NCBI GenBank assembly: GCA_020744425.1
Contig: JAGMUV010000016.1
Location: forward strand, 372,001 to 436,000
From: Dactylonectria macrodidyma
Taxonomy: Eukaryota; Ascomycota; Sordariomycetes; Hypocreales; Nectriaceae
Length of the DNA: 64,000 nucleotides
Direction: 5' to 3'
Position 1 is the stretch's first letter. The number at the start of each line of letters is the position of its first letter. Under the pieces are notes generated by a model. It saw only the letters and a list, made by a program, of their open reading frames with translations. It was not told where the DNA came from and made no database searches. The translations under genes and the position numbers were made by a program. This document shows positions 1,481-57,716 of this stretch, piece by piece.

Positions 1481-2007
1481 GGGCTGTTGACGTCGGAGAC
1501 CAGCTTCGAGCCTCATACGCATGGCGTCATAGGTGGAAAAGGGCACCATGGCAGCCATTAGGCTGGGGCTTCTTGCTGGGAACTGTGCTTGTCAATGCTT
1601 ATAAGCTGGATAGTGAGCACGGCAACTGGAGGACCTCCAGAGGTAGTCATCTTGGATGGCGAAAAGCGCTCGTTAAGCAGCTATTTGAGCGATACACGCC
1701 ATTAACTTCATCTCGAAAGCGAGGACGAACAGGCGTCTTCATCGACCTTCGTAATATGCAGCTTTCGCCACAAAAACATCGTCAAGGCAAAAGAGGCAAA
1801 AAGGCTGCATGTAAGGTCTGCGTGGTTGCAGACGTAAGGTCTAAGAAAAAGGTGAAAGTAAGACAGCCTTTAGGTGAGTTGGACACAAACTCGGTATCAA
1901 AAGCTCCGCCGAAGACCTTTTGGGGCTGTCTTGACTGCGATGTGGCTCTTTGCAAAGGCGTACTGTGCTGGAACATGTTTCACAATACAAATTTGGGTGT
2001 GGTTTGA
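1480..2007 (+). pseudogene. PiggyBac-like transposase, C-terminal fragment
   Basis: This is the C-terminal part of a piggyBac-type (DDE_Tnp_1_7) transposase. The frame shows the conserved tail of the catalytic domain (VDVGDQLRASY, then a tryptophan-rich stretch and FLLGTVLVNAYKL). A 'RKALVKQLFERYTP' segment follows, and then a cysteine-rich C-terminal region with C-x2-C, CLDC and LCKGVLCW...FH, the zinc-binding tail typical of the family. The N-terminal domain and the catalytic aspartates are missing, so it is a remnant. The frame runs in from the duplicated region upstream without a credible start codon. Family assignment rests on motif spacing; I am fairly sure of piggyBac. Confidence 0.72.
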
Positions 2008-2680
2008 TGTATTTGTAGAGGAGCGATTTTTATTGGTCAATCAAAGTCTTGGCATGTACTGTACAAAAAATCGCACCATCTGCCAGCTAAGGGGATACAC
2101 AGGGGATTGCGCACGTTGGAAGTTGGAAGCTGGGCGTGGTGGGCAAGTTGGCGGCGCCTTCGTCAGGCTGACGGACAATCTCAAGAAAGCCCATGATATG
2201 ATCGGACGCACGCTGGATCCCGCTCCTAAATTCAAGGGCTGGCTGGAGACGACGGGCTTCTGTCACATTACGGAGCGAAAACTCAAGCTTCCCGTAAGCA
2301 TGCGGCCCAAGGACAGGCGACTGAAAGAGATCGGGGCCTGCTTTAGAACGTTCGCGTTTTACTTAAACTTTGGTTAATTGCAGTACTATACTAGACCCCT
2401 CCGCATTTGCGTTGCGGCATTGGGAAAACCCAAAGGGAAAACCAACGCCGAGGGAGAAACAGATTCAAGAAACCAGGGCCATGCCCAATGTGAAATGACC
2501 AACCATCGCCGAACCAGAAACCTCATAGAAAGGAGTGGTTATGTTCTCAAGTGCCCCAAAGGCTCACACAATATAAAACCCAAGTAGCCCTGAAGTCAAT
2601 TTCCCAACATCCTCACTGCTTGCCACTCCTGTCCAAGTCGACAAGATCCTAGTCAAAAAGATTACACGCTCCGACGCCGA
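2008..2680. other. No gene recognised
   Basis: Several short open frames occur here but none has a recognisable domain or a good start. Part of it may be the 3' flank of the piggyBac remnant. Confidence 0.4.
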
Positions 2681-2872
2681 TTACGACATCGCCCTGGCCC
2701 CCCGCGTTACTATCCGGGAAACGGAAGTCCGCAAAGAAAAGAAAGAACTTACGGGACCAACGCAGCACGTCTTCTCGGAACGGCCGCCGCCGCGAGCCTC
2801 AATATCATCAGCTGGAGCGGCAATGGCAATGACAGCCATGGTGAGGGCGGAGAGAGCAACAGAGGCCTTCAT
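2681..2872 (-). CDS. Small secreted protein, 3' end uncertain
   Basis: The 63-residue frame opens with a textbook secretion signal (hydrophobic run about residues 3-18 ending in AIAAPA). A Kex2-like EAR site follows, then a glycine/arginine stretch and a CC pair (KTCCVGP). The start is well supported: a TATA box lies about 115 bp upstream, the leader is CT-rich, and CAATCAAA precedes the ATG. A consensus donor (GTAAGT) falls directly after the CCVGP codons. The residues after VGP in the unspliced frame are therefore probably intron, and a short second exon lies beyond an acceptor near 2650 or 2635. The family is not recognised; hydrophobin-like or effector-like proteins have similar starts. 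The 3' side merges into repeat-like DNA, so the gene may be truncated. Confidence 0.5.
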   Translation of the reverse strand: MKASVALSALTMAVIAIAAPADDIEARGGGRSEKTCCVGPVSSFFSLRTSVSRIVTRGARAMS

Positions 2873-2985
2873 TTTGATTGTAAGAGGTTGGTTTGGTAAA
2901 AATTTGTTGGGGGATTGGAGCTTGTGGAGGATGCTGTGGATGCTGGTGAAGTGAAAGTTGGAGTCAAGGTGGGAGTCGAAGGGGG

Positions 2986-2994
2986 TTTATATAG
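2986..2994 (-). promoter_or_regulatory. TATA box of the small secreted-protein gene
   Basis: On the minus strand the sequence reads CTATATAAACCCCC. It is followed by a pyrimidine- and CA-rich leader of about 115 bases leading to the ATG at 2872, a normal fungal core promoter. Confidence 0.6.
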
Positions 2995-3120
2995 ACGAAG
3001 TCGAGTACGATCAATACAGGTTTATGTCCACCATGCAAGTGCTGGAGTTACATCACATGCTGGCAGCTATGCCAATGAGGCCATAAAAGCTCAATGTTAC
3101 AGTGGCTTGGCAATTTGAAA

Positions 3121-3885
3121 AATGTCTTCAAGAGTTTAAGAATCTGGGAAAGATCTACATTCAGAACGCATCCTTGAACCTAACTTTGGAGGACTAAAAA
3201 GGTTGACTCGAAAACTTGTTATCGTGGCTTGCGATATGAAATAATACAACTATCCCATATCCATAAACTGCTCGGTAAACTCCGCCGACTTACCTATGCA
3301 TGCATTAGTTAGACATCAGCCACTACAACATTGTTCCCACGCATATACCGGATATAGGAAAAGCCAACGCGGCAGCAGTCGCTGCTAATTACCAAGCAAG
3401 TTTCCCAACGTCGAACCTGTCCTCATAGAGCATCAGCGGCGCTATTCCCTTCGACCCCAAAAGCAAGGAGATCATTCTCGGCAACGTCATCATTAGCATT
3501 GACGCCGTTCAGTATAATCTTGGATGGCAGTTATTGGAGGCTTTTCTCCGGCAAGATTTGCTGTTACTCTTTACGGCTCAAACGGTACTAGCGCAATTGA
3601 AAAGCTTTCGTGGCCAGCCGCTGAATAGAAGATGATAACGCAGGAAGCAGAAGAGATATTGAAAAAGATACTAAACGCACGTATAGCCAAGAACCAATAT
3701 TAGAAGGCAAGAATGGAATATTACGTCAAGTAGAAAGACTACCCTCCTTTGTGGTGGCCTCAATTGGACCTAATACCTGGCAGTAAGGCATTGCTCTATG
3801 AATTCCATAACCATAACCCAGATCGGCAATTACCATTATAGCGTCATAGGAGATCCTAGCTACGTAGGTGGGGTGTATCGACGAC
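3121..3885. other. No gene recognised
   Basis: A+T-rich intergenic DNA with no open frame of note and no recognisable repeat boundary. Confidence 0.5.
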
Positions 3886-4125: not shown

Positions 4126-4417
4126 GGCTTTTTCATGACCTACGAAGCGAAGTGAAGGAGGCGATAACCCTTCCCTTTGCTGAGATAATATTTCTATGAC
4201 GGTTATAACTAGCCTAGTCTAGAAAGATGGTGTATTTTGAATCCTCTTACACCTCAATGATGGGATAACCGATCCCATAAAAAGCAATGATTATCGCTTC
4301 CTACAGCTCGCATGTGATGAAAGGCTGCAATCTCCACAAGCATAACGTAGTCCCAAATACTAGCTGCAGGTCCAGGCTACCGGTATGTAATCTGATTCCC
4401 TGTTGGGATCCAGATGA
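4126..4417. other. Intergenic, target of pogo insertion
   Basis: No coding potential seen. It ends at the TA dinucleotide (4418-4419) duplicated by insertion of the pogo-like element. Confidence 0.5.
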
Positions 4418-4724
4418 TACCATCCGGCACCACCTAATGGACACCCCCACCTAATGCACCACCAAAAATTTGACCCTCCCATACAAAATCCAAATTTTCA
4501 ATTGCACCGCATTCAGACAAAAATAAAGGTACTCTCAAACTAAGGCCTGTACTATATTGCTTTTTTCATGCAATTTTAGTATCGGCCTTACTTTTTCCCG
4601 TCCCGTCTCGTGGCCTGATTCTCTAGCCCTTTGAATTTTTTCGCATTTCACCTCATCCACCCTAGTCGACTCCATCTACTCAAGCCGAGTTTTCACCTAA
4701 GTTGCTGTCGGAACTCCTTCTGCA

Positions 4725-7700
4725 ATGGTTCACCGTAATTATACCGAAGATGACGTAGCTGAGGCTATATTCGATATCACTGATAGAGGCCTATCACAGA
4801 CAGGAGCGGCCGAGAAACGTGGAGTGCCTCGGTCAACCATTTCTAGAAGACTTTCCGGTCAAGCGAGCAGGAATGAACGTGTCCAGGCCCACCAGCGTAT
4901 TTCAAAGAGCCAAGAGGAGATCCTCGTTCGTTGGGTGCTGCGGCAAGAGTCTCTGGGCTATGCTCCCTCGCACAGCCAACTCCGCGCCTGTGTCGAGGCC
5001 CTCCTTCAACAACAAGGCGATAACAAGCCATTGGGTAAAAACTGGACCTCCAGGTTCATCAAGCGACACTCAAAACTATCTACCAAGCTTGGAAACCGTC
5101 AGGAAGCCGCCAGATTTAACGGTTTTACACCAAAGGCGGTCAATTGGTACTTCGATATCCGGGAGACGGAATACGGCTGGATCAAGCCTGAGAACACAGT
5201 TAACGTAGACGAGGGCGGCATAATGGCGGGTTTCGGTAAGTCCTCTATAAGTTCCCTATGGGTTTTTGTAGGTCATAACTAATTGGTTGTCCATAAGGCT
5301 TGGACAGCCTCGTAATCGGGAGCTCTGACCCGAAGAAGAAGGCGATGTTGAAAGGCACCCAGTCGCGCACTTGGACCTCGTTCATTGAGGCTGTCACCGC
5401 AACTGGTCGCGCTTTGAAACCGGGAATTATCTTTAAAGGAAAAGAGCTGCAGAAGCAGTGGTTTCTTAACGAATTCGAATTGATAGCGGACTGGCACTAC
5501 ATCACATCACCGAACGGCTGGACCGACAACCATATAGCTCTCGAGTGGTTGAAGGACGTTTATCTACCTCAAACAGAGCCTCGTGATGCATCGGATGCGA
5601 GACTTATTATCCTTGACGGTCACGGGAGCCATGCGCAGGTGAGCCTTTTGGGGTTTTCGCCACGGAGTCACCCGCTATAGGGTCGCTAACGAGCAGGCAG
5701 GCAAGGCTCGAACCCACTACACTGTAAATCCACGTGGACCACATATAAGTGGCCCATCTCTATTACATCCACTTGTCGGCGCTCAGATTACGTAATAATC
5801 CACTACACTTGGACCGGAAAGTGGATGTAATGGAGTGGATTTAGGTGGATTTAGGTACAGTGGGATATTCCCTGACCTGTACGGTTCAGAGTACTTATTT
5901 TTGTATATAATTGCCTATTAAATCGAGGTACCTGGACCCAAGTTAGCCGAGGTCGATCACCCCTACAGCTAATCTTATAACATTAGACGAGAAAATACCC
6001 CTATTGAGCGCGTTTTCTACAGATTTCCTGCTTTGTTTTGCCAAAAAAAAAAAAATTGATGTCAGCCAACCAGCCAGGCCAACCAAGCCAACAGCAGCAG
6101 CTCGAAGACCGTCTTTTTTGCCATTTCAGAGGCTGGAATTGGTCAGAACGCGCTCGTGATACTAGCTCTTGGCTGTGGGACTTTGGCTATGATATTCAAC
6201 GTCATGGCTTACGCAAATGGGCTTGCAAGGACTGTATCCTCGGAAATCGTCCCATTATCGCGAGTTTTACCTCTTCAGGTCTCCAGAACGCGGCAAATCA
6301 TCTATGGCGTGAGCACAAAACACCAGCACCAGAGGGAGAGAAAAAGAGCACAGCACAGCTCAAATCCGAAGGCGCACTGAAATCGAACCAGCTGACTATT
6401 GCCTCTGTTTTGAAACTGGACGTCAACAAGCCTGCGGAACAGAATATCGCGAATAGCTTCATCTCACACTTTGATAAGCAACACTTTCAGCGTATGCTAG
6501 TCGAGTTAATCGTCAGTAGCAACCAGTCATTTTCCTTCGCCGAGAACCCCATCCTCCGCGAAATCTTCGACTATTTGAGTCCCTCCGTTTCCATCCAACA
6601 CGCCAACTTGACTGCCACGGCTGTCCGATATAAGATCATTCAAGAGTATAACCGCCATAAGCAGACGGTTATCGAGGTGCTGAGGAACTCCCCTGGAGCC
6701 CTTCATATTTCATTTGATGGCTGGACGTCTCGAAATAAGCTTGCCCTCTACGGTATTGCTTGTTTTTTCAGAGACGAGAAGAATCGGCCATGCAAAATCA
6801 TGATTGGAGTTCCAGAGGCTCATCGTCACTTCGGCTCAACGATCGGTGGGGAGGTTCTCGACGTCCTACACACTCTTGGCGTGGGTCCAGAGAAGGTTGG
6901 CTATTTCACGCTCGACAATGCAGAAAACAACGATACTGCCATGGAGGTCATTGGTGCTGAACTTGGGTTCGATGGCCGACTGCGCCGAGGACGCTGTATT
7001 GGCCACACAATTAACTTGTCAGCCAAGGCGATCTTATTTGGCAAAAACGCCGACGCGTTCGAGAAGCAATTGTCAGGCGCAGAAGCGTTATCTGATACTG
7101 AATACGCTCAATGGCGCAAAAAAGGACCAGTTGGCAAGTTACACAATATCGTAGTTGATGTGCGTATTAGCCACCGGCTGATTTACTTGTTCAAGGAGGT
7201 CCAGAGGGTAAGCGGTTTAACTAAATCCTATTCGTCTCATATTAACTCGGTATATCTAACAGGACGAAATTAATCGCGCCACCACCCTTAAACTCCGATC
7301 GAAGAAACCACTCAAGCTAATTATCGACAACGACACGCGTTGGCTGTCACAACTCTACATGATCCGCAGGGCTCTACGGTTGAAAACCTCTATCGAACTC
7401 CTACTGATCAAGTATAAGGCGCAATGGGAGGACGAAAATCAGTCTAAAAAGACTGGCCAAGTGACACAAGCCAAGTTGGCGAAAAAACCACGCATCCTCC
7501 GAGACGAGAATCAGCTAACGGACAAAGACTGGGAGGTTCTTTACCATTTGGAGGCTATTCTGACTGTTTTTGAGACCGTGGTAAAGACGCTTGAGGGTGA
7601 TGGACACATCCGCAGGCGTAAGCAAGGCTGGACTGGCTCCTATGGCAATATCTGGGACGTGGTGCTTGGCTATGAGTTGCTGCTTAACACACTGGAAGAA

Positions 7701-16223: not shown

Positions 16224-18207
16224 ATGGATCCGGCATCCGCGGTCGGTCTTGCGGTCGGGGTTGCCTCCTTGGCATTTGATGTGTTTGACAATTCTATCAA
16301 ACGTAAGTTGAGGAGGATTCTGGATCGAGTGATTGAGTAACTGACGGACCATAGTTTTTAAATTTTTCTCGGCTATGGTAGACATGCCGAAAGATTGTGA
16401 GCAATGTCGCCTCCAGCTCATGATCGAATACAATCGTCTTTTGGCCTGGGGCGAGTCGGTGGGCTTGATGAACGCTCAGCAAGGATCGCATGTGGCTGTC
16501 AATTTAGGAACGAATGCAATCGAGCTGTGCAGCATCGTATCTCGCATAGGCTGGCTCCTTGGAGAATTTCGAGATATGAACGCCCGATGGAAGAACGAGC
16601 TGCTAGTGTCGCAAGACGACGATGAACTGATGAGCAAGCAAGGCTACGAGGACTTCGATTTGGCAAAGGAAGTCTCGAATCTCGCAATCACCTACGAGGA
16701 AACCAAACAAGCACGCAAATATCTTCGAGGGACCAACCATGTGATTAGATGGTTCTCGAAGGGAGCTGGGACTGCTAAGGAGATCGTTACGCACCCTTCT
16801 CGAGTTCGATGGGTGATGGTGGATAAAGGGGCATTCGAAGCACTTCTGGAAGATCTCCATTTCCTCACCGAGCGTATGCATGAACTCATGGAGGATTATC
16901 GTAGAGACCGTATGGAAAACACCACCTCTAAGATCTACCGCGAGATGGTTCTGGCGCGGAACGATATCAGCGATCTCAGAAACCTGCTGGATGCTGTTAC
17001 GAGCCTGCTCAAGACCACCAGGGAAAACACAGACGCAACACACCACAGCGAGAATGACGAAACACTTCAAGATCTTCTACGGCTGAAAAAGATCAACTGC
17101 GTCTCAAATGAGCTTCTACTAAAAATAGAGGACGAGCAGATCTTTGATATAGAAAGATATTTGCAAGACTTGATCAGTGTGCATCGATACAACGGCTCGA
17201 CATTGAGCGACTCCTTCTCCTACACAAAGCACGACAACATTTCAAGAGCTACTGGACCACCTCGGCCGAGAGGGACTCTGAGCCACGTTGGTGAGGAGAT
17301 TCAGGTTTGGATCGAGTGGAAGACAACAGGCGACATTCCCAAAGGACCCCTCGAGGACAACGAATCCAAGTTGCGAACCGCAACTCTTGCGCAGATGCTT
17401 CATACCAAGAAGCCTCGGCACCTTTATTCACCTACCTGCATTGGGTACATCGACGATTGTGCAGAGAACCGTCGATACGGATGGATTTTTCGAATGCCTG
17501 ATGGCTCAACCGAGGCCACAGTGCTGAAAACACTCCACGAAATTCTAGGCCAGAACCAGTATAAGCCAACACTTACCCAACGAACGGCCCTCGCTTGGAG
17601 GCTAGCATCTTCACTGCTCTATGTACACGCTACGAACTGGCTGCATAAAGGGGTTCATAGTGGTAACGTAGTCTTCACGTTCGACGGAGATTACTACAAT
17701 CCCGAGAATCCTATCCTCTCAGGATTCGAATATTCACGTCCGACGAGCAATAAAACGACGGGTCGAAGTCTTGACCCGAAGTGGGACATCTATCGCTGGC
17801 CGCGTGTTCAGAACGAAGTACCACAGGCGGCAAACTCTCGCAAGACGTACGATATCTACAGTCTAGGCCTGGTTCTGCTCGAAATCGCCCACTGGAAGCC
17901 GTTGCATAAGATTATGTGCCTGAAAAGGTGGCCAGAGCCCTCCTCTCAAGACCCGAGGATTCGTGGCTGGCTGTTGGGACAGGAGCGTCGTCCGCCGTTC
18001 AAAGATACAAATCCTCTTGTCGAGCTACGTGATATCGCCGGGGACAAGTATTGGAGAGCGATCTGCCGTTGTCTTGTAGCTCATGGTGACGAAGGAATGA
18101 GCGTCGATGAGAACTCAGATCAATCACAATGCTCCGGGACTGGAATCAGACTCCAAAGCGCGTTTACTGAGTTTGTGCTTGAGGAGCTTAAGAGTGTTTC
18201 GATTTGA
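16224..18207 (+). CDS. HeLo-domain pseudokinase (MLKL-like architecture)
   Basis: The exons are 16224-16302 and 16355-18207 (52-bp intron, GTAAGT/CATAG), about 643 residues. The start MDPASAVGLAVGVASLAFDV is a glycine/alanine hydrophobic helix. After the intron come FKFFSAMVDMPKDCEQC and QLMIEYNRLLAWGESVGL, the signature of the fungal HeLo (prion-inhibition) domain, which permeabilises membranes in HET-S. A helical linker follows to about residue 330, then a kinase-like fold to the C-terminus. The kinase is dead on inspection: the catalytic loop reads LHKGVHSGNVV instead of HRDxKxxN, and the DFG site reads LSGFEYS. A later YDIYSLGLVLLEIA matches kinase helix F. The gene is convergent with an ankyrin-kinase gene 118 bp away. 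A role in regulated cell death or heterokaryon incompatibility is inferred from the domains only. Confidence 0.85.
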
Positions 18208-18325
18208 TCAAGTTCAAGTATGGAGGATTTTATATCCTAAGCAACGAGGCGGCCCTTTCTTATGCTTTTTTCCCCGGTTACCCATTTAGCAGATCTTTTC
18301 GGCAACAAAGTACATTCTCTACCGG

Positions 18326-19753
18326 CTAGTCATTACGCTCAAAGAAAGAATCCAACAAGCTCGCCACACCACAATGATGCCTCCTTTCTGCGAAATCCAA
18401 CGCTATGTTCCCATCGAGATCTTCTGCCTCAGTATCAGCTCCCGAGTCTAGGAGCATCCGGACAATTCTCGTGTGGCCTTGTCCTGATGCACCATGCAGT
18501 GCGGTTTGCTCGTTCTCGTCCTTGATGTTGACATCAGCACCATTCTCCAACAAAAACTGAACAACAGGCTCGGAACCACTACGAGCGGCACATTGCAGCG
18601 CTGTCTGCCCTGTCGGATTAGCGGCGTTGATATCAGCACCGTGGTCTAGCAGAGCCTTCACGATGGGCACATGCCCACCCGCCGCAGCAAAGTGGATTGC
18701 GCTTGTGGCATTCGGATTTGCCCCCTCATTCAGTGCTTGTTTGACGGCATCCCCGGACCGTTCTCTACAAGCCACGACCAACTTGTCGTTCTCCGATAGG
18801 GCCAAGTTCTTGGCACATCTACACGCCATAGATTCATCTGTAGTCAACAAAGACGATATATCCAACTCGATGTTTGCTGCGTCTGGGCGCTGGAGTCGAT
18901 CCTGGTGCAACATCTTTTTGCAAAGGCAAAGAACCTCATATTGCCAGCCGACCAGGTGAACCTTTTTCGTGATCCATGCATGAACTTCATCAATATGCTT
19001 TGCGTATGACGCTCCATTATGAGACGGCGACTCTAGCACTCTCTGCAACTCTTTGAAACCATCTGGGTAAGAATAAGCGAGAAGCATTTCGAGAAAGACA
19101 GCCCCTAGGGAGAAAATATCTGCCGATCGACCACGAGTACTACCTCTATCCACTTCCGGAGCGCAATACTCCCGTGTTCGCGCAGCGTTGCGATGCTCGT
19201 ATGTAGTTGGCAGTGTCTTTCCAAGGCCCATCTGGGAGATGCCAAAGTCAGCCAGCAACGGCTTGTCGCCTTTAATCAAAATGTTCGATGGCTTGACATC
19301 TCGATGTCGGATGCCCAGTAGGTGAATATGGGAAATGGCGTTGACCAAGCAACCAAACCATCGCTCCTTTGGGGGGTTTTTTGGCTTGAGATAATCGTGG
19401 AGGTTCGCATCTGCTCGATCCATGACGATTGAAAAGTGGATCTGGTCTTCCGTGCTGTCCACAAAATAGGTGTGGATCAATTGAACAACATGATGATGCC
19501 TGGCCAAGTGAAGAATCTTGGCTTCTTGCACAAGTTTGCGTCTTTTCTTTCCTAGTAAAAACTCATCTGTTTCCGTAGGGTCGATGATGGTTTTCTGGAC
19601 GCATTTGAGGCCTTGAAAACGGCCCGAGATCCCTTTAACCTTGATGACAGAATGAGAGATGAACGGGTAATTGCCATCAGGTGCGAACGGAATCTCAGCA
19701 TCTTTCTTGTAAACACATGGCAAATAAGGTTCGGCGGTATCTTGACAGTCCAT
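18326..19753 (-). CDS. Ser/Thr protein kinase with C-terminal ankyrin repeats
   Basis: From the ATG at 19753 the product has about 475 residues; the open frame continues 5' to 19774 and may have an upstream exon. The kinase domain (about residues 30-310) has a beta-3 lysine candidate (GLKCVQK), a C-helix glutamate (LVQEAKIL), HRDVKPSN, ADFG, CAPE in the activation segment and ADIFSLGAVFLEML. All catalytic motifs are present; only the glycine loop is loose. The C-terminal part (about residues 330-475) has four to five ankyrin repeats (AIHFAAAGGHVPIVKALLDH, GADINAANPTGQTALQCAA and similar). The kinase-then-ankyrin order is that of animal RIPK4 and ANKK1. Because it is convergent with the HeLo-pseudokinase gene, it may phosphorylate or signal to that protein. 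This is inference. Confidence 0.85.
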   Translation of the reverse strand: MDCQDTAEPYLPCVYKKDAEIPFAPDGNYPFISHSVIKVKGISGRFQGLKCVQKTIIDPTETDEFLLGKKRRKLVQEAKILHLARHHHVVQLIHTYFVDSTEDQIHFSIVMDRADANLHDYLKPKNPPKERWFGCLVNAISHIHLLGIRHRDVKPSNILIKGDKPLLADFGISQMGLGKTLPTTYEHRNAARTREYCAPEVDRGSTRGRSADIFSLGAVFLEMLLAYSYPDGFKELQRVLESPSHNGASYAKHIDEVHAWITKKVHLVGWQYEVLCLCKKMLHQDRLQRPDAANIELDISSLLTTDESMACRCAKNLALSENDKLVVACRERSGDAVKQALNEGANPNATSAIHFAAAGGHVPIVKALLDHGADINAANPTGQTALQCAARSGSEPVVQFLLENGADVNIKDENEQTALHGASGQGHTRIVRMLLDSGADTEAEDLDGNIALDFAERRHHCGVASLLDSFFERND

Positions 19754-19774
19754 CGTCTGGAACTGGCAACTCAA

Positions 19775-25934: not shown

Positions 25935-27721
25935 CAGGCTCCTACGATGGGACAACTGACCTTACTCGACTCCGGAAAGCCTACACGTACTGGAGAAACC
26001 TGGCGAGGGCACAGCGGCGGGCAGGCCATAGACAGGAAAACCTAGAGAGCCGGGCGAAGGTAGCATCCAAAGTGTACCACGACACCATCAGAAGACAGAA
26101 GAAGGCCCACTGGGACGACTTCCTCGCAGACAGGGCCAATATTGGCAAGCGGCCAAATACCTCAAACCCGGTGCGACAAGGTCGGCGACAAAATCCCCAA
26201 GCTGAAAAGGGCGGAAGGGACGACAACGCAGGACAAGGCGGAACAGGCAGAAGAACTGCTAACGACATTCTTCCCACCGCTACCAGCAACCATCGAAGAC
26301 GAAGGTCCACGGCCGCGGCGGAGAGAAGTGGCCATGCCGGATTTGACGTTGGAGGAGGTGGAAGAAAAGGTCATGGCAGCCAAGGCGTGGAAAGCACCCG
26401 GAGAAGACGGCCTGCCGGCGATGGTGTGGAAGCAACTGTGGCCGGTGGTCAAGCAACCAGCGATGCTATCAATTCAATTCAAGTAATAAAAAAGCAAAAA
26501 GCCCTGTATTTTAATTGGATAACTTGAATTGAATTGGGTAACCAATTCAAGTTCTCCAATCAGATAGCCGCTTTTTTTGCTTTTGTGTTACTTGAATTGA
26601 ATTGATAGCAGCGCTGCAAGGAACGCGTGATGCATCTGTTCCGCACCTCACTGAATGAAGGACAGCTACCAGTCCAGTGGAGGAGTGCCAAGATCATCCC
26701 GCTCAAGAAGCCGGACAAGGCCGACTACGCGGTCGCAAAGGCCTGGAGACCCATCTCGCTGCTGTCGACGCTGGGCAAGGTGCTCGAAGCAGTGGTAGCG
26801 GACAGGATCTCGTACGTCGCCGAGACGTTTGGGCTCCTGCCCCCAAACCACTTTGGGGCAAGGAAGCGGCGGTCGGCAGAGCAGGCCTTGCTGCTCTTCC
26901 AAGAACATGTGTACAAAGCGTGGCGGAACCGCAGGGTAGTCAGCCTAGTCAGCTTCGACATCAAGGGCGCCTACAACGGCTTGTTCAAGGACAGACTACT
27001 ACAGAGGTTGAAAGCAAGAGGCATCCCCGAGAAGCTGGTGCAATGGATAAGCGCGTTCTGCTCCAATCGCACAGCCAGCATCATGGTGAACGACTACACG
27101 TCAGAGCAACGGGAGATACCAAAAGCCGGCCTTCCTCAGGGATCGCCGCTTTCGCCTGTGCTTTTCCTGTTCTTCAACGCAGACCTTACACAAAGTAAAA
27201 TTGACTCGAAAGGGGGATCAATAGCCTTTGTCGACGACTACTCAGCCTGGGTCACGGGGCCGACGGCGGAGGCGAACAGGGACAGCATACAGGCCATCAT
27301 CGACCGGGCACTGGCGTGGGGGAAACGCAGTGGAGCGACATTTGAGCATGACAAGACAACAATTGTCCACTTCACGCGCGTAGCTGAACGCACCAGCGAG
27401 GCGCCGTTCATGATCAATGGAGAGGAAGTCAAGCCAAAGGCGAATGCCAAACCCTTAGGGGTAATCATGGACACGGAGCTCAGGTTCAAAGAACACATAG
27501 CCAAGGCCGCCACGAAAGGTCTCTTGGCAGCCACGTGTCTAAGGAGACTCAGGATGCTGCCACCACAAGCGGCCAGACAACTCTTCGTCGCAACCGTTGC
27601 CCCAGCCATGGACTACGCGTCTGTCGTGTGGTCGCATGCGCGCGGCGAAAGGGAATTGAAAGAGTTCAACGTGCCGCCGGGTAAAGGGATGGTATACCAA
27701 ATATTGATCCCTGGCTTCTGA
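25935..27721 (+). pseudogene. Tad-type non-LTR retrotransposon (LINE) fragment, broken
   Basis: The pieces read as one reverse-transcriptase ORF with damage. A first part (about 25960-26150) has SKVYHDTIRRQKKAHWDDFL. After a frameshift near 26150 a second part (26142-26460) has AKAWKAPGEDGLPAMVWKQLW. A MITE insertion at 26465-26609 follows, then the RT core (26627-27721) with SAKIIPLKKP, RPISLLSTLGKVLE, SFDIKGAYN, GLPQGSPLSPVLFLFFN and the catalytic box AFVDDYS. It stops in the thumb/linker region; no RNase H or endonuclease domain is left. The element is dead because of the frameshift, the insertion and both truncations. Confidence 0.88.
26465..26609. mobile_element. 145-bp MITE inside the LINE
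   Basis: A perfect 22-bp terminal inverted repeat (GCTATCAATTCAATTCAAGTAA), continued by an imperfect AAAAAGCAAAA stem, bounds 145 bp. It interrupts an otherwise continuous LINE reading region between VVKQPA and KERVMHLFR. No unambiguous target duplication is visible (AGCG occurs on both sides). Confidence 0.85.
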
Positions 27722-28026
27722 CGATTCTAAAAATATATATACTTTCTTGTTGGAACATCGCGGCCAAGATACATACAAGCAGCAGATGGGATGCGGCAGG
27801 TGGTATGTGCGCCCACCTGGAAGCGATAACGGGACTGTCTTATCGGCCTATGGGGCACATGATCCATATCTCCTCACTTCGCACCTGCTGGCTAGTTAGA
27901 TGATACAACAACAGAAGATCCATCAATACGAAGCCTAAATACAGCACTATTTCGGCTTCAACCAGTGGTTCGAACCCTACCCTTGTGAAACCTACATTTC
28001 TATTTTCCTGTATTGTACGTTGAGAA
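27722..28026. other. No gene recognised
   Basis: Spacer between the LINE remnant and the hairpin element. Confidence 0.5.
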
Positions 28027-28239
28027 ATACCGTATCGACTCAAAAGATTCGGATTGCCCCGTGGGTCCAGATACCCCTGTTCTGCAGCATCTAATTGGCT
28101 TATAAGCCAGCTGCAATGCTTGACAGTTGTGCGTCAATCCGGATAACCCCATAAAATTGGCATACTAGCCAATCAATGGGGGTTTGCAAGGGTACTCAGA
28201 CCTACGGGGCAATCCGAATCTTTTGAGTCGATACGGTAT
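28027..28239. repeat. Hairpin element with about 53-bp inverted repeats
   Basis: 28027-28079 (ATACCGTATCGACTCAAAAG...) and 28187-28239 are reverse complements with about four mismatches, enclosing about 107 bp. The size and symmetry suggest a MITE. A TA target is possible, but the ends are palindromic and so not resolvable. Confidence 0.75.
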
Positions 28240-28727
28240 GTATCTTTATTGGGGTGTGACCGCGCAGGAAGGTGGTCATTTTGGGCTTTTGACAGACTTT
28301 TGGAGTGGAGCTTTAAAGTATGCGTTTATCCGACAGCAACGCCCGAGGCGGTCGCAGACACTATCCTGCAAACCCATTGTGGTCAGGATTGAAGTGGTGA
28401 CGGATCCGCTACGGACAATTCAATCAAATGGATAGGGATCAATACGGTGATGATGATGTTGATGATTACTTCTGCCGGTCATCCGGATCAGTCGGAAGAG
28501 GGGTTTTCATACCCCCCCCTTCTGACTAAGGTCAGGATATCAATCTATCCGAGGTTTCGTTATACAGGGTCATCATCCAACAAGTGGCAGAAATGTAAAT
28601 AGTGTTGGATTCACCAGCTGCGCCATTTTGGGCAAAAGTTTAGGGTACCCCGCTTATTATTACAGCTTGGAATTATCCAGTATATAACCCAACAAATAGC
28701 ATAGCGAGTTCCATGGCCCTATGAGAT
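28240..28727. other. No gene recognised
   Basis: Intergenic, with a short poly-C run near 28514. Confidence 0.5.
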
Positions 28728-28880
28728 TGTTGGAGATCACAAGTGTGAGGCGACCAAGTCGGTGGCAAAGTGTGGAAGAAGGAGGAACATTCTACAAGAG
28801 ATCGTGCCTGTATATAAACAGTGGTTCACCTACTGCACTTTTAGTATGAATTAAGCAACTTGAATCTTCCTATTTCAACA
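28728..28880 (+). mobile_element. Solo LTR, 153 bp, with GAGAT target duplication
   Basis: It starts TGTTGGAGATC, ends CTATTTCAACA, contains TATATAAAC, and is flanked by GAGAT at 28723-28727 and 28881-28885. These are the TG..CA ends and 5-bp duplication of an LTR retrotransposon. The family differs from the other LTRs in the window. Confidence 0.85.
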
Positions 28881-28885
28881 GAGAT

Positions 28886-29339
28886 CCGTTCTCCCGGGCG
28901 TAATAAAGCTACTACTATCCTGCAACCCCACGGGTCCACGGGTCTCCAGTCTTCCGCCTACGCCCAGCCTATCCCAACTGCCGTCGCCCCTGAACGGTAT
29001 CCTCGCAAAGGTCCAGCGACGAGATACGATCACCCAAAGAATCTTTTAACCTCGTTGCACCAGCATCGCGGGCTGCCTGCAATGACAAGGAAAAACCAAT
29101 GGCCCGGGGAATTATTGGATTTGCGTCTTTCTCAACACCCAGTTTATTACCAAGATAGTGTTGTTGGATTGCGCAGGAATGCTGAGTGCACCTTTTTTGA
29201 GAATGTAGTTCTTATTGTGATTGTTCTTCTTGCAATCGAAGGACCTTTAAGACCTTATATCTTCGAGTGGTCCCTTCTAGGACTTGAGTCCTAGAAAGTC
29301 CTACGATCAAGTCCTACGATCTAAGTTTTAGGACTTCAA
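28886..29339. other. No gene recognised; AGTCCTACGATC direct repeat
   Basis: The frame 28860-29294 has no recognised domain. At 29280-29330 the words AGTCCTA(C)GA and TAGGACTT are repeated. This is next to the truncated end of the Helitron. Confidence 0.4.
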
Positions 29340-32300
29340 ACCTTAACTTTAATCCTGAAGTTGAGGGGGAATCCTCAGTTCTTCCAACATTAACACGAGC
29401 TTTCTTGCTATAGATACGAAGAGCAGCGTCAAACGTATCTACCTCGCGCTGGCTTAGCTTGACCTGCACACGCTGGCTCAGAAGTTTCCATGATTCGATG
29501 GATAACTTCAGACCACGTAATTCTTCAAGCGTAATACGAAAGCCAGCCTGGTCGTCGCCCTGTTGCCGCTGGACCTTCTTCAAGCAGACAGTGTGGTTAA
29601 ACGCCCTATATGCCGCCTGGCCAGAGATCTCTTGCAGGTCTTTGAGTGGCCCATCAAAGTAGAGGGGCTTGTTCGCAATCGGCGGGAGCTGGAAGAAGTC
29701 ACCAACGAGGATAATACTTATGCCGCCAAAGAATTCGGTTGCTCTGCCAGGAAAGACTTGGCGGAGGCGTTTGTCGATCCACGAAAGCTGACGCAGACCT
29801 AGCATACTTTTCTCATCAATCACAAGATACCTAACGTCCCGTAGCTTCTTCTGAAGAGCATTAGCATCTGCAGGGGATAGCTCTGTAAAAGCCCTATCCA
29901 TAGGTAGCCGCAGGAGAGAGTGTATTGTTGTCCCCATTATCTGGTTGCTTGCAACACCCGTGGGTGCAGCTCTCCGGATTGGACTGGGCCGGTTACCAGC
30001 GAGTCTCTGAAGATGCGAAGACAGGACTTTGATCATGTAGGACTTGCCTGTCCCGCCACCACCGTCAACATGGAGTAGAATCTGCTCCCCGCTACCGCAT
30101 TGGAAGTGTCCAATAAACGTATCATATACTGCTCTGGATTGAGAGTATCGCGGACCTCTAAAGGCAGGTCTTCAACATCCATATAGAGACGATTCTGCTC
30201 AAAGCGCTGGCGCCAATAATCGCCTTGAACGATTCCTGGGTCAGCGTAGCGGCCGACGTGGGGTGTCCAATCGTATTGGATATCGATATCCCGTCGACCC
30301 AGGAGATCCATTACCTCTTGGCTTGGTGGACAGTCGGGAAGCTGGCGGGCAAGCTCAAGCCAGTCCTCCTCCAGAAGGTCAGGCTCGTGAAATTCGTCCT
30401 CAAACTCATCCGGATCTGGTCGACGTTCTTCGGCGTTAGGAGTGCCATAGTAATCATCAGGGTGCCAGTGGGTCCCATAACAGAATTCGGCGGCAGATGC
30501 ATACGAGTCATACTCGACACCGTCGATCTTGCGTAGTTCGTTGGGATCGCGATGTGGATGAGCCAGCATTAGCTTCACACGACAAAAATCATCATATTGG
30601 TGATGCTGCGGGTTGGACTTATACCGCGGGAAGTAGTATAGAACACGAGGCCTAGCTTGACGGCCCCATCGTGTCCACTTTCTCCCATCCCTCTTGCTAG
30701 TATTCCAGTTGGCTAGGAAGTCAAAGTAAGTAAGTTCTTCATGAAGGGGAGGGCGAGAAAGATACTTCTCATATATCCCAACGACCTCAGCATCGTCATG
30801 ATCACCTTGGAGGCGAAGAGACCGTCTCTGTTGCTCGTAGGGACGGCAATCAACGGCTCTTATAACACGGGTACCCTCCTGCAGCTCGCAGTTGAGCAAG
30901 ACATGGCAGATCTCTTGCCCCGAGAAGTCTCTCTCAGCAAGCAACTTGTTCATTAGACGCGAGGCAAAAGATAGAAGTGGGTTCTGGTGGGAGACATAGG
31001 GCAAGATTTGCCGCCCCAGGCTGGCATAACTGTCAGTCCGCTTCTCCATCTTACTGCAATACTTGGCTGCATAATTAATCACAGCTTGAAGGCTGGTACA
31101 GGGGGAGATATCAATGTTGGCTAACCAGCCAAGACTGAGACACCGGTTATAGTGGTTCATAAGGCTGTCATTCCTGGCCGCCTCGAAGGAGAAGTAGGAT
31201 TGTCCTTGTCGTCGAACAACGTCAGCCGTATCCCTCGTATCCCGTGGGAAGGAAAAGCGGCAAGAAATCTCTTCTGAACCCTTCTTCTTTCGTAGGCAGT
31301 ATGTTTCACTGCAATGGTGGCGTTGGCAGCGGTTCAGAACCTGTGAGAGCCATTGGAACGTCAAGGGATGCTGCAAGGGATTTACAGCCAAGGGATTACC
31401 TTCTCCTTGCTGTTGGACTCGAGCTGGCTCAGGATTGAAAGCTGTGACGTGGAATCTCCAGATACGGGCGAACTCCTTACGTACATGCTCATTTTCCAAG
31501 TCAACACTGGGCGCACCGTCCATCCAGAATAGGCCGTGGCAATGGCTACTTCCGCGACCCTGCCATTCATACCTGTTCCAAAAATCAGTGACGTTGAATT
31601 TCTGCTTCAGAACGATATCTCTGAATAAGCCAAACCGCTTGTAGAAATGCCAGGCTGCAATATGTGGGTTGTCCCTGAGAAGTTTGCTAGACATGCCCAT
31701 TCGTTGTTGCTCGGGCAACTCTTGCCAGTCTTGAAACTGGGGCAAATGTTGGTAGAGGCTCCTCCAGTGCAAGTCTGCCGGGCTGAATGTAATAAAAGCA
31801 CCAGGACAGTCAAGGTTGTAGGCATAAGATTCAAGCTCTCGACGCTTTCGGTACCAATAAGGGTGTGTCCCGCGAAGCTGTGCTGTCTGGCGGTTGATCG
31901 AGTTGAGCAACTGCTGGGCTTCTGCAGATTCAGGTTTCTGGAAAGCCTCTAGTAGATCATCTCGAGTTATTAGACCCTGCCATTGTTGGTATTGCTTGAC
32001 GAAATAGCTGCTTTTCGCCCGTGCCTGTGCTCGCATCAGCGTGTTGAAAACCACAAACCGGAAAGTGGGATGGCGGGCAAATCTGCCATCATGCCATCGA
32101 AGGGCATGCTGAATGTAGTCCGCATACTTGATAGGCCGTAACCTTGGCTCCACGAAATCAGCTTGACCACGAGGGTATAGTGTTGGAAAGGCTAGGGACA
32201 GGAGTGCTTGTGATTGGTTGAACTCATTTATCGGTGTTCTCCGAATATCTGGCATTTCAAGCTGATGTTGTGTCGATGGTCGTACATGAAGCTGTTCATC

Positions 32301-33398
32301 GCGCTCTTCGCCAAGAACGTGCGAGTGTAATGCTTCCATCTCTGTATCCTCTGGTAGTAGATCTGGTACTGCAGACTGGTCAACCTCATCTGGCTCAACG
32401 TCGTCATTCTCGATGTTACCCAAATTAGCTGAAAGAGGATCGGTGACTTCCGCAGTAGCAACCTGATCAAGTACATCGCCATCTTCAGGCAGCACTGACA
32501 TACGCTTCTGGCAGACAGTAATATCTCGGTAGCCCGGGTGGTTATTAGACAGGAAATCCAGCCACTCCTGAAAGACAACGACGGCGTACGCGGAACTGGC
32601 GTCTGAATTGGCGGTTAAGGTGGGCATGTTCTCTTGCATTAGGAGGACGTAGCAGGATAACATCTAACTCAGCGGGTAAAAGGGGAAGTTGGCGATACAC
32701 CTTGCCAACATCGCGGAGAAAGTGCACAATATGGCCACGATACTTATATTGCTGCCCTCGAACCTGCATGACGTTCACGAACACATGAACAGGAGCAATT
32801 AGCATCTCTTCTACTATTGTCAATTGGGGGAGGAACGCAGGGATTAAGCCAAAATCTAAGTGATTTTCGGCTGAAAAAACCAAGGCTCATCCTCCTTTTG
32901 GTTCTTGTCCCTGGCAATGCAACGCTTGCAAATACCATCTTTCAAGCCCATATCAAACCATGTCTCCTGACAGCGAGCGCAGTGTTCCATTCGGTCGTTT
33001 TCCAGCTCCGTCCAGAACTTCTCCAGGAGCTCCTTATCTCTATCAGACAACGGGCAATGCGACAGATCACGCATCCAGTCACGATCCGGAAGCTCGAAAT
33101 CTCGACGTTCCATGACCGGGCGTTCGATAGCCGACTGCTGCAGCTGCAGAGGTGGGCGGAAATATCTTCCCCGGGCTGGTCTCGGCCAAATAGAATGACT
33201 CGATAACGGAGATTCGATCGGCGTTCCAAGCCGTACGCCTTCTTGAGAAGCAATCGAGGGACCTGGTGGGGAAGTAATCGGCGCGCCTGCTCGTGTTGAC
33301 GTAGCAATTTGTGTTCCCAGCAGAATAGATTCTTGTGGGTTAATTGGTATACGTAATTGCAAGTCTATCTCCTCTGACGACAAATCTGACGTGGACAA
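29340..33398 (-). pseudogene. Helitron Rep-helicase, frameshifted and 3'-truncated
   Basis: Read on the minus strand, four overlapping frames form one Helitron protein. 33398-32856 is a Ser/Pro-rich N-terminus with a zinc-binding motif (CARCQETWFD...GICKRC). 32883-32545 is the region before Rep (FLPQLTIVEEMLIAPVHVFV). 32663-30033 is the Rep domain with the HUH motif SSHCHGLFW and the tyrosine motif INYAAKYCSK. 30036-29314 is a Pif1-type helicase with YLVIDEKSMLG and LVGDFFQLPP. The Walker A (GGGGTGKS) is encoded across the last junction near 30040-30060. Frame changes occur near 32880, 32600 and 30130. The helicase stops before motifs V and VI. A separate Helitron helicase C-terminus lies at 47935-48480. 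The catalytic residues survive but the gene is broken. Confidence 0.9.
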
Positions 33399-49477: not shown

Positions 49478-51730
49478 ATGAGTTCTTCGCCAATTCGTGA
49501 TCAGGATGTATCATCTTGTAGCCCAGAACCTCAACTATCTGCAGTGCAAAAATGGATCAATCCCAGCACCGGGAAGCCCAATTTCTCGCGGCATAATGAC
49601 GGCAACCTCGAGCAGCGCACTGTTGCCGCAGCAGAGCTCTTCCACGAGGGTTATTATCGCTCTGTTGCCGCGGCATCGCGAGACTTGAGGGTCCCATATG
49701 ATAGACTCCTGAGCCGTACTAAAGGAGCGAAGCCTACCACCCAAAATGGCGGTAACAACACTCTCTTGACCGACACGCAGGAGCAGGCAGTACTGTGTTG
49801 GGCACATCGCCGGGTCACACAGGGCCACCACATTCAACTTCGGTCTCTTCAACACAACGCAAATGCTATACTGAGAGCTTCCGGCCACTCACGAAAATCT
49901 TCACATAGCTGGGCTAAGCGCTTCATGAAGCGCTGGAAAAGCACCTTTTACGTGAAGCAGTCTATGACCCGTGATGTGAAGCGGAAGGCGATGCAAGACC
50001 GCGCCCACATCGAGGCTTTCTTCTGCGCCTTTGAAGACTTTGTGCGTGAAAATGGCATCAAAGTTGAGAATATCTGGAACTTCGATGAGACGGGCTTCAT
50101 GATCGGATATCTCCAGAAAGGCACCTTCGTATGGACTTTTCGAGAGGTTGAACAGCCTATTCTAACTGATGCACACATCACTATCTCTGTGACCGCGGTT
50201 GAGTCGATTTCGGCTGCTGGTGCTTCTATTCCCCCCTTTATCATCATGCCCGGTATCAACATTCCCGTCAAATGGGTCCAAAATCGCCTCAGTGACGATA
50301 CTACGATTACAACTAGCAGTAAGGGGTATATCAATGACGTCCTAGCTCTCGAGTGGGCTAAGCACTTTGAGCGACTTACACGGCCTTCTAACCCGGAAGA
50401 GAAGCGGCTGCTTCTTATGGATGGGTGCGAGAGCCACTTTACGCATGAAATCTTCTATTTTTGCAGTCAGCATAACATCGAGCTGTTTCCTATGCCTCCG
50501 CATCTTACACATCATCTTCAGCCTCTCGATGTTGGTGTTTTCAATGCATATAAGAAGTGGCATCAGCATATCCTATATAGGGAAATCGCTGACGGTGCTA
50601 ATGACTTCAATAAGACCGACTTCCTATACCACCTCCAAGAGATACGAGAACGGACCTTCCGGAAGAGCACAATTCTCTCTGCTTGGGAGAAATGCGGCCT
50701 GTTTCCTCATAACCCAGCTAAGGTCCTAGATAACCTCAAGGATCCGCTGTCATCACTAACCGCAGATATCTCTGTTGAGAGTCTCCCAGGTCACGTCGAA
50801 GTTGGCTCTTCCTCAGTAATCACAACACCACAACAACAGAGCTATGATAGCTTCATAACCCCTGTGACTCCTCAGAGGGTGCCGTTAGAAGCGTATGACT
50901 GGAGAAGGGCAGCTACACCACCGCTACGAATGAAGGCTATTGAGAAATATCAGGACTACGTGATGCTTCGTATACACACATCAATTACATCAGGGGTGCC
51001 GTTAACCCCGTCAGTCATGCGTGTATTTGAACATGCAGTCACTGCTAGCAACACACTGGCCCTGAATGGTATTACCGCAACTCAGGAGCTACACCGTCTC
51101 AAAGAGAAGGCTACGAGACGGTCAGCCCTCCAAACACAGACGTCAGTCATAGCAAAATACGGCCCAATTAGCGTCGGTGATGCGAGGCTTCGAGTCTTAA
51201 ATGATGAACACAATCGACAAGCTGCACAGGCTGATGAGAAGAAGCGAATTTTACGAAGAGACAGTCAAGATGAAGGTCTCTTTTTACGCCGTTGGATACG
51301 TGATGTCAGGTCACATGTGAGGCCTAGTATCACAGCTGTGAGGGTCGAAGTCATATATAGTAACCCTAGAAGAGCCTGGAAGCCGCTGTATCAGCTACGG
51401 CTAAAACGCAGCAACTGGTGGTCCAAAACTGACCGGCGTTCTCACCTTGCTTCGAGTGAGTGGCTTGCTCAGAAATATGCTCTTCATCGCCAACTTCAGC
51501 AGCTAGGAATAGGTGACGATAGATGGCAAGGAACAGGATCTTGGCCGAGAGACTACGAACCCGAAGTGGTCCAAGAAGCAGTCAACTTTGCTATTCTCAA
51601 CGCACAGGAACGGGCTCTTGGAAGGAAACAGTTGACTTTAGAAGCTGATGGAATTGAGGTTATCACGGAAGAGGTAATTGAGAATAGTCAGGGCGAGTTC
51701 CTGATCCTAAAAGACGAAGAAGATGACTAG
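49478..51730 (+). CDS. Pogo-like transposase, intact (HTH_psq/CENPB + DDE_1)
   Basis: An intronless 750-residue frame with the ATG at 49478. The N-terminus has a psq-like helix-turn-helix (FHEGYYRSVAAASRDLRVPY) and a CENPB-type domain (about residues 85-160; HRRVTQGHHIQLRSLQHNAN, SWAKRFMKRW). The DDE_1 core has IWNFDETGFMIG, LLMDGCESHFTHE and HHLQPLDVGVFNAYK, which supply the three catalytic aspartates. A long C-terminal region (430-750), rich in charged residues and with ALNGITATQELHRLKEKATRR, is typical of long fungal members. No damage is visible. It should mobilise this element, and the high similarity of the two ends suggests that it did so recently. Confidence 0.93.
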   Translation: MSSSPIRDQDVSSCSPEPQLSAVQKWINPSTGKPNFSRHNDGNLEQRTVAAAELFHEGYYRSVAAASRDLRVPYDRLLSRTKGAKPTTQNGGNNTLLTDTQEQAVLCWAHRRVTQGHHIQLRSLQHNANAILRASGHSRKSSHSWAKRFMKRWKSTFYVKQSMTRDVKRKAMQDRAHIEAFFCAFEDFVRENGIKVENIWNFDETGFMIGYLQKGTFVWTFREVEQPILTDAHITISVTAVESISAAGASIPPFIIMPGINIPVKWVQNRLSDDTTITTSSKGYINDVLALEWAKHFERLTRPSNPEEKRLLLMDGCESHFTHEIFYFCSQHNIELFPMPPHLTHHLQPLDVGVFNAYKKWHQHILYREIADGANDFNKTDFLYHLQEIRERTFRKSTILSAWEKCGLFPHNPAKVLDNLKDPLSSLTADISVESLPGHVEVGSSSVITTPQQQSYDSFITPVTPQRVPLEAYDWRRAATPPLRMKAIEKYQDYVMLRIHTSITSGVPLTPSVMRVFEHAVTASNTLALNGITATQELHRLKEKATRRSALQTQTSVIAKYGPISVGDARLRVLNDEHNRQAAQADEKKRILRRDSQDEGLFLRRWIRDVRSHVRPSITAVRVEVIYSNPRRAWKPLYQLRLKRSNWWSKTDRRSHLASSEWLAQKYALHRQLQQLGIGDDRWQGTGSWPRDYEPEVVQEAVNFAILNAQERALGRKQLTLEADGIEVITEEVIENSQGEFLILKDEEDD

Positions 51731-55620: not shown

Positions 55621-57716
55621 CCAGAGCCATGAATCGTCGGTTCGGGTTCAGTACCGCCTTTCTTTTCGTCCCTTGCCACAGCTAAGCCATCTGCTCCTCG
55701 AGGCCAGTAATCCGGGCACTCTGAACGGCCACCTTCATCTCTAAAGCTTCTTCAAGGTCCTTTGCGATCTTGCTGTACTTCCGCCTGGTCGGACGGCTTC
55801 GGTGTTTGGTCAAATCTCTCACGTGGCGGCTTGTTTCGGCGAATTATCTAAGTGTAGCTGAGGAGGGCTGGGCGTCTTGAAACGTTCTAGTATTTTTTCC
55901 TTTGTCTGGTTGAATTTCTGGATGTGTTAGAGCTTTGTGACGGTTTATTGGCTAATTTCTAGTAAATCTCCAGCCGGATAAGATAATCTTTTCCCTCATG
56001 CTTGCCTCTCTGGCTTTCGCGTATGTCCGTATAAAGTTGACTTTGTCAACCGGCGCAGAATCGGCCAAACTAGGCAGCTTTTGGAGTTCTTTCCGATATG
56101 CACCTTTGATGGCGTTAAAAATTCCCATTATGTAACTGTTACAAACCATGAGAGCAATGCGCTGGTAGATAGCAGCAGTAGACGTTGTTCAGAAAGCACG
56201 TAGCCATCCACTCATCCTGACTGTGAAAGGCTTCTAGCGAGTTGATTCAACTAACTAGTCCCTATGCTGTTTACTTTCAAGGTGAAGAAAGGAAAGAATC
56301 TAAATACAAACTGGGTGCGTGAAGCGTTATATCTTCTTTAATATAGAAGATTCGAGAATCGACTCGATGGCGCTGTGGAGAAGAATTCGGGCTTGGCGGC
56401 AGAGCCGCCAGCCAAGTGGGCCTGACCCGTTACACTGACTGCTCGTTCGCGATCTTATAGCGGGACACTCTGCGGTGAAATCACCAAAACACTCACCTGT
56501 GCATGGCTTCCATGACCGTCAAGGATAATAAGTCTCGCATCTGATGCATAGCGAGGCTCCATTTGAGGTAGATAAACGTCTTTCAACCACTCGAGAGCTA
56601 TATGGTTGTCAGTCCAGCCGTTCGGGGATGTGATGTAGTGCCAGTCCGCTATTAATTCGAACTCGTTAAGAAACCACTGCTTCTGCAGCTCTTTTCGTTT
56701 AAAGATAATTCCCGGTTTCAAAGCACGGCCAGTTGCGGTGACAGCCTCAATCAACGAGGTCCAGGTGCGCGACTGGACGCCTTTTAACAACGCCTTCTTC
56801 TTCGGGTCGGAACTCCCGATTACGAGGCTGTCCAAGCCTTATGGACAACCAATTAGTTATGACCTATAAAAACCCATAGGGAACTTATAGAGGACTTACC
56901 GAAACCCGCCATTATGCCGCCCTCGTCCACGTTAACTGTGTTCTCAGGCTTGATCCAGCCGTATTCCGTCTCCCGGATATCGAAGTACCAATTGACCGCC
57001 TTTGGTGTAAACCCGTCAAATCTGGCGGCTTCCTGACGTTTTCCAAGCTTGGTAGATAGTTTTGAGTGTCGCTTGATGAACCTGGAGGTCCAGTTTTTAC
57101 CCAATGGCTTGTTATCGCCTTGTTGTTGAAGGAGGGCCTCGACACAGGCGCGGAGTTGGCTGTGCGAAGGAGCATAGCCCAGAGACTCTTGTCGCAGCAC
57201 CCAACGAACGAGGATCTCCTCTTGGCTCTTTGAAATACGCTGGTGGGCCTGGACATGTTCATTCCTGCTCGCTTGACCGGAAAGTCTTCTAGAAATGGTT
57301 GACCGAGGCACTCCACGTTTCTCGGCCGCTCCTGTCTGTGAGAGGCCTCTATCAGTGATATCGAATATAGCCTCAGCTACGTCATCTTCGGTGTAATTAC
57401 GATGAACCATTGCAGGAGGAGTTCCGACCGCAACTTAGGTGAAAATTCGGCTTGAGTGGATGGAGTCGCCTAGGGTGGATGAGGTGAAATGCGAAAAAAT
57501 TCAAAGGGCTAGAGATTCAGGCCACGAGGCGGGACGGGGAAAAGTGAGGCCGGTACTAAAATTCCATGAAAAAAGCAATATAGTACAGGCCTTAGTTTGA
57601 GAGTACCTTTATTTCTGGCTGAATGCGGGGCAATTGAAAATTTGGATTTTGTATGGGAAGATTGAAATTTTGGTGATCCATTAGGTGGGGGTGTCCATTA
57701 GGTGGTGCCGGATGGT
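55621..57716 (-). mobile_element. Pogo-like element copy B, truncated and inactivated
   Basis: Same family as 4420-9676, in reverse orientation. The transposase-upstream end is intact (57640-57716, reads GGTGCCGGATGG then TA). The other end is cut within the C-terminal coding region at 55621. The transposase exons are 57410-56900 and 56837-56497, then a solo LTR, then a degenerate exon 3 from 56216. Exon 3 has CAA-to-TAA (stop in HGLQ) and later damage. Exons 1 and 2 remain open and differ from copy A by only a few residues. Confidence 0.9.
56222..56434 (-). mobile_element. Solo LTR inserted at the intron-2 acceptor of pogo copy B
   Basis: TGTGAAAGGC...CCGTTACA in plus view, 213 bp, flanked by CTGAC at 56217-56221 and 56435-56439. 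It is the same LTR family as 9853-10068, in opposite orientation, and nearly identical. Read with the transposase, the duplication is GTCAG, so the CAG acceptor is present on the exon side of the LTR. Confidence 0.92.

Follow-up and report, generated by a model that had tools for sequence, protein, structure and literature searches.

We describe here a pair of neighbouring genes in a window of 64,000 nucleotides from the root-dwelling fungus Dactylonectria macrodidyma. Gene A encodes a HeLo domain, then a helical linker, then a C-terminal DUF7580 domain, and gene B encodes a kinase domain followed by ankyrin repeats (Table 1). The original prediction, made from the letters of the window, was that a HeLo domain is fused to a kinase fold that has lost the HRD and DFG aspartates, and that its neighbour is a kinase that retains HRDVKPSN and DFG and ends in ankyrin repeats. 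Pfam, translation and the motifs of homologs bear out the former, Pfam and homolog motifs bear out the latter, and the two genes do converge with 118 bp from stop to stop.

The A/B pair sits amid transposon genes. Two near-identical ORFs of 185 aa lie in opposite orientation at 4725-5282 (+) and 56853-57410 (-) of the window, the first of which encodes transposase DNA-binding domains of the Tc5/Psq type. Further ORFs, at 26627-32663 and 49478-51730, are of the reverse transcriptase, Helitron-like and DDE_1 transposase types. A Gti1/Pac2 family regulator is encoded at 62792-63979 on the minus strand (E 1.4e-61).

Table 1. Features of the A/B gene pair, in positions of the window.
Feature	Position	Strand	Basis
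Gene A, HeLo-pseudokinase, 643 aa	16224..18207	+	splicing and translation; Pfam; homolog list
Gene A, exon 1	16224-16302	+	splicing and translation
Gene A, intron of 52 bp, the sole intron needed	16303-16354	+	splicing and translation
Gene A, exon 2	16355-18207	+	splicing and translation
HeLo domain of A, residues 8-237	16245..16986 (intron inside span)	+	PF14479, E 1.8e-41
DUF7580 match within the pseudokinase of A, residues 427-615	17554..18120	+	PF24476, E 1e-8
HRD-loop counterpart of A, HKGVHSGN, residues 457-464	17644..17667	+	catalytic Asp replaced
DFG counterpart of A, GFE, residues 483-485	17722..17730	+	Gly at the Asp position
T494-T495, activation-loop counterpart of A, candidate target of B	17755..17760	+	homolog conservation
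Gap between the convergent stop codons of A and B, 118 bp	18208..18325	.	ORFs and splicing
Gene B, kinase-ankyrin protein of 475 aa counted from the likely ATG	18326..19753	-	ORF; Pfam; homolog list
Ankyrin repeats of B	18380..18781	-	PF13637, E 1.4e-28; PF12796, E 2e-28; PF13857, E 6.1e-20
Kinase domain of B (Pfam match)	18869..19558	-	PF00069, E 8.7e-29, profile 42-257 of 263
Catalytic loop of B, HRDVKPSN	19283..19306	-	HRD Asp conserved in homologs

The HeLo domain of A is complete, matching positions 1-205 of the 205 in the Pfam profile and scoring above the cut-off. The most hydrophobic 19-residue window found in a hydropathy analysis of the protein is residues 3-21. A Pfam scan at E 0.1 identified neither a HET-s prion domain nor an NLR domain. 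The C-terminal domain is rated by Pfam as DUF7580, with 35.6 bits against a cut-off of 27 over a partial profile (135-292 of 319), and its kinase match is weak. A kinase fold is predicted for this domain in the model of an A ortholog, P0002, where the executioner domain, linking helices and pseudokinase come in an order that may resemble that of MLKL. A Foldseek search with this model matched full-length MLKL (4btf), but with an rmsd of 14.2. The VIA-align comparison for A returned tied kinases, with approximately residues 292-645 aligned and the HeLo half barely covered.

A profile built from A-type proteins only, when searched against PDB chains, gave weak matches to LIMK1 (1.8e-4), RAF (4.5e-4), HET-s (8.5e-4) and MLKL (0.0021). 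Strong PDB E-values were obtained only with a diverse family profile, which was made from 18 HeLo-pseudokinases (seven A-type homologs and 11 paralogs from the same genome, the window protein being left out). Among the best 60 of its 769 matches the HeLo domain of HET-s ranks first (2wvo, E 5e-17), followed by IRAK4 (2e-9), LIMK1 (4e-9), MLKL (4.7e-8) and RAF. We take the last four to be TKL-type kinases and MLKL to be the best-scoring pseudokinase among these 60 of 769 matches, though it is not the sole relative.

Across the homologs listed (the best 120 of 151 matches for A and the best 120 of 3997 for B), A has lost its catalytic residues and B has retained them. The HRD aspartate is missing and the DFG aspartate is a glycine in all 120 of these A homologs. 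Fourteen HeLo-pseudokinases of the D. macrodidyma genome were examined, the window included; the glycine is present in every one of them, and the HRD aspartate is missing in 13, the C18 member retaining it. If the beta-3 strand (VAIK) has been placed correctly, its lysine is replaced by glutamate in 118/118 A homologs and in 13/13 of the own-genome proteins with letters at this position. In contrast, the B homologs with letters at these sites keep the HRD aspartate in 118/118 cases and the DFG aspartate in 116/118.

The activation-loop counterpart of A hosts two conserved threonines, T494 (119/120) and T495 (111/120 of the best 120 of 151 matches). These are equally conserved in A proteins with no detected partner, and they are not retained in the own-genome paralogs. 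A nearby serine, S498, is conserved in paired A proteins (0.91) and not in other A proteins (0.22); we rejected it as a pairing-linked site, as species history accounts for the pattern equally well.

The predicted structure of B has a mean pLDDT of 85.8, and its N-lobe extends further 5′ than the PF00069 match. The Pfam scan of B returned kinase and ankyrin families alone, with no NACHT or NB-ARC. Among solved structures it matches JNK and BRSK kinases best, and there is no RIPK among the best 60 of 1543. Foldseek was uninformative for typing the kinase, since its best 50 rows were ankyrin/DARPin and fusion entries. One B-type kinase, P0194, carries a HeLo-like PF17111 domain and was considered as a fusion clue. 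As PF17111 is found in none of the 119 other listed hits, this single case is perhaps a gene-model artefact.

The genomic linkage of A and B is strongly supported. We inferred that two homologs share a contig where their contigs are of identical length; the resulting counts are lower bounds, and the listings are without orientation. At least 32 of the 120 listed A homologs, our own pair included, have a B homolog on a contig of identical length. The chance expectation, derived from eight length differences of 1-20 bases, is approximately 0.2 such pairs, therefore the adjacency of A and B is not due to chance. Two further same-contig pairs are on large contigs. Twelve of the 32 pairs lie on contigs shorter than 10 kb, which leaves 1.3-6.5 kb for everything else. 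Seven pairs from six species and five genera have consecutive locus tags: N7497_000945/6 (Penicillium chrysogenum), FSARC_11379/80, FMEXI_11331/2, LTR78_010585/4 and LTR86_011078/9 (both Recurvomyces mirabilis), PISL3812_09757/8 and G7Z17_g4174/3. The absence of synteny in other genomes had been named in advance as grounds for refutation; the outcome is the opposite, with the pair on shared contigs in other fungi. The module is real and recurrent, and it has been kept in several fungal genera, including moulds that are only distantly related.

The distances among A proteins and among B proteins are correlated over the 32 pairs (r 0.912, where the best of 2000 shuffles gave 0.343), a parallel divergence that could also come from shared species history alone. 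A listed B is found on the same contig for 18/31 A homologs of at least 55% identity versus 14/89 below that level, many of the latter from Sordariales. On the tree of A the paired rows are not grouped together, and pairing takes 18-19 changes. Zarea fungicola has one A and two B proteins on separate contigs, and none of the listed A proteins shares a contig with Ilyonectria P0122, the closest listed relative of the window B (83%).

The D. macrodidyma genome has 56 HeLo matches, 54 once merged, and 34 DUF7580 matches. A kinase gene neighbours 10 of the 14 HeLo-pseudokinase genes: those in the window, C3, C18, C27, C1 (two loci), C2, C7, C43 and C34, nine of which were seen in sequence and C34 by coordinates. 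The adjacency of a HeLo-pseudokinase gene and a kinase gene is repeated, in other words, at further loci of the same genome. Of the remaining four, C10:134208 is counted as ambiguous because its supposed kinase frame matches the C27 kinase weakly (E 8.8e-6) and belongs to no Pfam family; this frame has neither HxDxKxxN nor the DFG aspartate, although there is an ankyrin frame on its divergent side. C77 and C12 are without a likely partner; the flanks assessed were those of 13 genes, all but C10:319880. The full kinase located 3 kb from the C77 gene, which we take to be of the Ark/Prk type, was judged to be an unrelated ordinary kinase. At C12:3734500-3744000 the HeLo-pseudokinase gene adjoins a dual-specificity phosphatase gene, and no kinase was seen nearby.

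This arrangement recurs within one genome with different kinases and different sensor parts. The partner at C1:3163283 is a single frame of 1245 aa with kinase and ankyrin parts, and at both C18 and C27 the kinase frame leads directly to an ankyrin frame on the same strand, the two frames being taken as one gene. The kinase frames at C43, C7, C2 and C1:6520163 reach the end of the sequence examined; among the 150 of 1721 candidates scored with the ankyrin profile there is none from these remaining partners, the C termini of which lie beyond that sequence. Within C3:217500-227000 the gene after the HeLo-pseudokinase (1739-3593) opens with an HSP70 domain and continues into a B-type kinase (4144-7583), an unusual HSP70-kinase protein. 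Ten neighbouring kinases were compared, the window B and the C10:134208 frame included, and all but the latter show HxDxKxxN and the DFG aspartate. Among these nine, DFG appears as DFS in three; HGD is found in seven, and HRD in the window B and the C3 kinase.

Some further kinases of this genome deserve mention. The B-type kinase matches listed are on C8, C17 and C3, and there is no HeLo or DUF7580 match near the one on C17. At C5:508427-510598 (minus strand) a kinase match and a DUF7580 match lie 0.8 kb apart and both report the same open frame of 766 aa, a possible natural fusion of kinase and pseudokinase.

A second type of kinase was explored with the C27 kinase as query, counting as a neighbour any HeLo or DUF7580 match within 4 kb. 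Ten of the 19 matches (query included) have such a neighbour, nine a HeLo and one a DUF7580 only, and the other nine are unpaired. All ten pairs are divergent (chance 1e-6). Random placement gives 0.97%, and the binomial probability for 9/18 without the query is 3e-14, under a uniform placement model that ignores the clustering of accessory genes. Eight of these pairs are among the 14 HeLo-pseudokinases described above; the other two, C76:1157091 and C10:1417896, were placed by their coordinates alone. The best matches of this kinase type are EGFR, LRRK2 and MAP3K12/MAP3K9 entries. As a control, at least 4 of 116 merged PF00069 genes lie equally near (122/368 candidates scored), namely the window B, the kinase of one second-type pair, the C5 frame that holds DUF7580 and the C77 kinase. 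This control misses some partner kinases, among them the C3 gene, which is just over 4 kb from its HeLo match.

Our main reading, to which we assign a probability of roughly 0.6, is that A and B together make up a conserved module of two genes for cell death or defence, in which the B kinase switches the HeLo executioner A. The HeLo domain of A would be able to attack membranes, and the catalytically dead C-terminal kinase domain would hold it in check. B would serve as the sensor-switch: its ankyrin tail may read a cue, upon which the live kinase would act on its partner, the likeliest way being phosphorylation of the activation-loop counterpart in the pseudokinase of A. T494/T495 or nearby residues are the candidate phosphosites, and their phosphorylation would free the HeLo domain. 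We infer a physical interaction between A and B, phosphorylation in this direction, membrane damage and cell death, and we propose activation of A by B as the most likely mechanism.

The sign of this regulation may be reversed. If B restrains A, then the loss or poisoning of B would release A, in a guard or poison-antidote logic. The tight linkage and co-divergence fit this as well as they fit activation, and the sequence is silent on the sign of regulation. However, some homologs and own-genome paralogs have an A with no detected partner, therefore these fungi and loci seem to tolerate A on its own, and we consider restraint by B to be quite unlikely. Alternatively, A and B may be linked in a non-lethal role, e.g. 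as a membrane signalling pair for hyphal fusion or stress with HeLo as an anchor. The HeLo domain in A is recognised by homology alone, and the evidence for toxicity, in the available text of PMC12881547, rests on few HeLo/HELL proteins. That said, the multi-copy, patchy and sensor-swapping make-up resembles defence pairs more than housekeeping, and a non-lethal pair is in our view rather unlikely.

Might A and B be accessory genes that happen to stay adjacent and do not interact? Several transposon genes are found in the window, and accessory genes can cluster beyond what the uniform placement model allows. However, the same pairing is found in other genera, the second kinase type is paired in 10 of 19 cases against approximately 1% expected and always divergently, and the control kinase genes found likewise near, at least 4 of 116 listed, include two members of such pairs. 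Linkage without interaction is very improbable.

RIPK4 and ANKK1 have a kinase domain first and ankyrin repeats at the C terminus. The likeness of B to these proteins, which was part of the original prediction, is one of architecture, as Pfam also places the kinase of B before its ankyrin repeats; the kinase itself is closest to JNK/BRSK entries by sequence, with no RIPK among the best 60 of 1543. Plant MLKL proteins combine a helical executioner domain with a kinase-like domain. One of these, Pm13, is described as an MLKL protein (PMC10951266), and the available text mentions no adjacent kinase-ankyrin gene.

In the sources available to us, the described fungal HeLo gene pairs are NLR-amyloid pairs. 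HET-S/NWD2 and HELLP/PNT1 are adjacent sensor-executioner pairs with a HeLo or HeLo-like executioner (PMC3321046, PMC7885112, as far as their available text goes). A and B are likewise adjacent genes, one of which encodes a HeLo protein; however, those pairs have an NLR as sensor and signal through an amyloid motif, whereas here a kinase lies beside a pseudokinase. A figure legend of the review PMC12881547 mentions HELL-kinase/pseudokinase proteins, and the available text gives no partner kinase, conserved gene pair or motif survey for these. No description of a kinase-ankyrin/HeLo-pseudokinase pair was found in the open-access literature searched; neither did the accessible text of the kinome and NLR papers hold anything on a kinase/HeLo-pseudokinase pair, nor did a term search of that of PMC2838846 give any match. 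DUF7580 is not mentioned in the literature searched.

A close parallel in logic is RIPK3-MLKL, which also joins a live kinase to an executioner that combines a helical membrane domain with a pseudokinase. The HeLo domain and the helical bundle of MLKL are regarded as related in the sources available. In the accessible text of PMC6013482 and PMC12463104 MLKL has GFE in place of DFG, and its HRD counterpart is given as HGK (PMC6013482) or HRN (PMC12463104); A has GFE for DFG and HKG for HRD. The predicted likeness to MLKL stands in that both profile and fold matches include MLKL, which is among the best 60 of 769 matches of the diverse profile, but it is only one among other kinases there. MLKL keeps the beta-3 lysine, whereas A has a glutamate if the alignment is right. 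Unlike RIPK3 and MLKL, A and B are encoded by adjacent genes, and B bears ankyrin repeats and has no RIPK match among its best 60 of 1543. The resemblance is one of logic and of a TKL-like pseudokinase, judged by sequence, with no orthology implied.

It is about an even chance that filamentous fungi have, alongside the amyloid/NLR pathway, an MLKL-like death pathway triggered by kinases, with many two-gene modules per genome; in each of these a live kinase with an exchangeable sensor (ankyrin, HSP70) would face a HeLo-pseudokinase executioner of its own. The pair offers a testable answer on how far necroptosis extends in fungi, which is raised in the available text of PMC12881547, and the divergent and convergent modules of one genome may serve as natural replicates of kinase-pseudokinase matching. 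According to the same text, NLR receptors switch HeLo executioners through amyloid templating, or the executioner is itself part of an NLR. If our reading is true, the pairing of a kinase with a pseudokinase-HeLo protein would add a further type of switch, one that follows RIPK3-MLKL in its logic but apparently uses different kinases.
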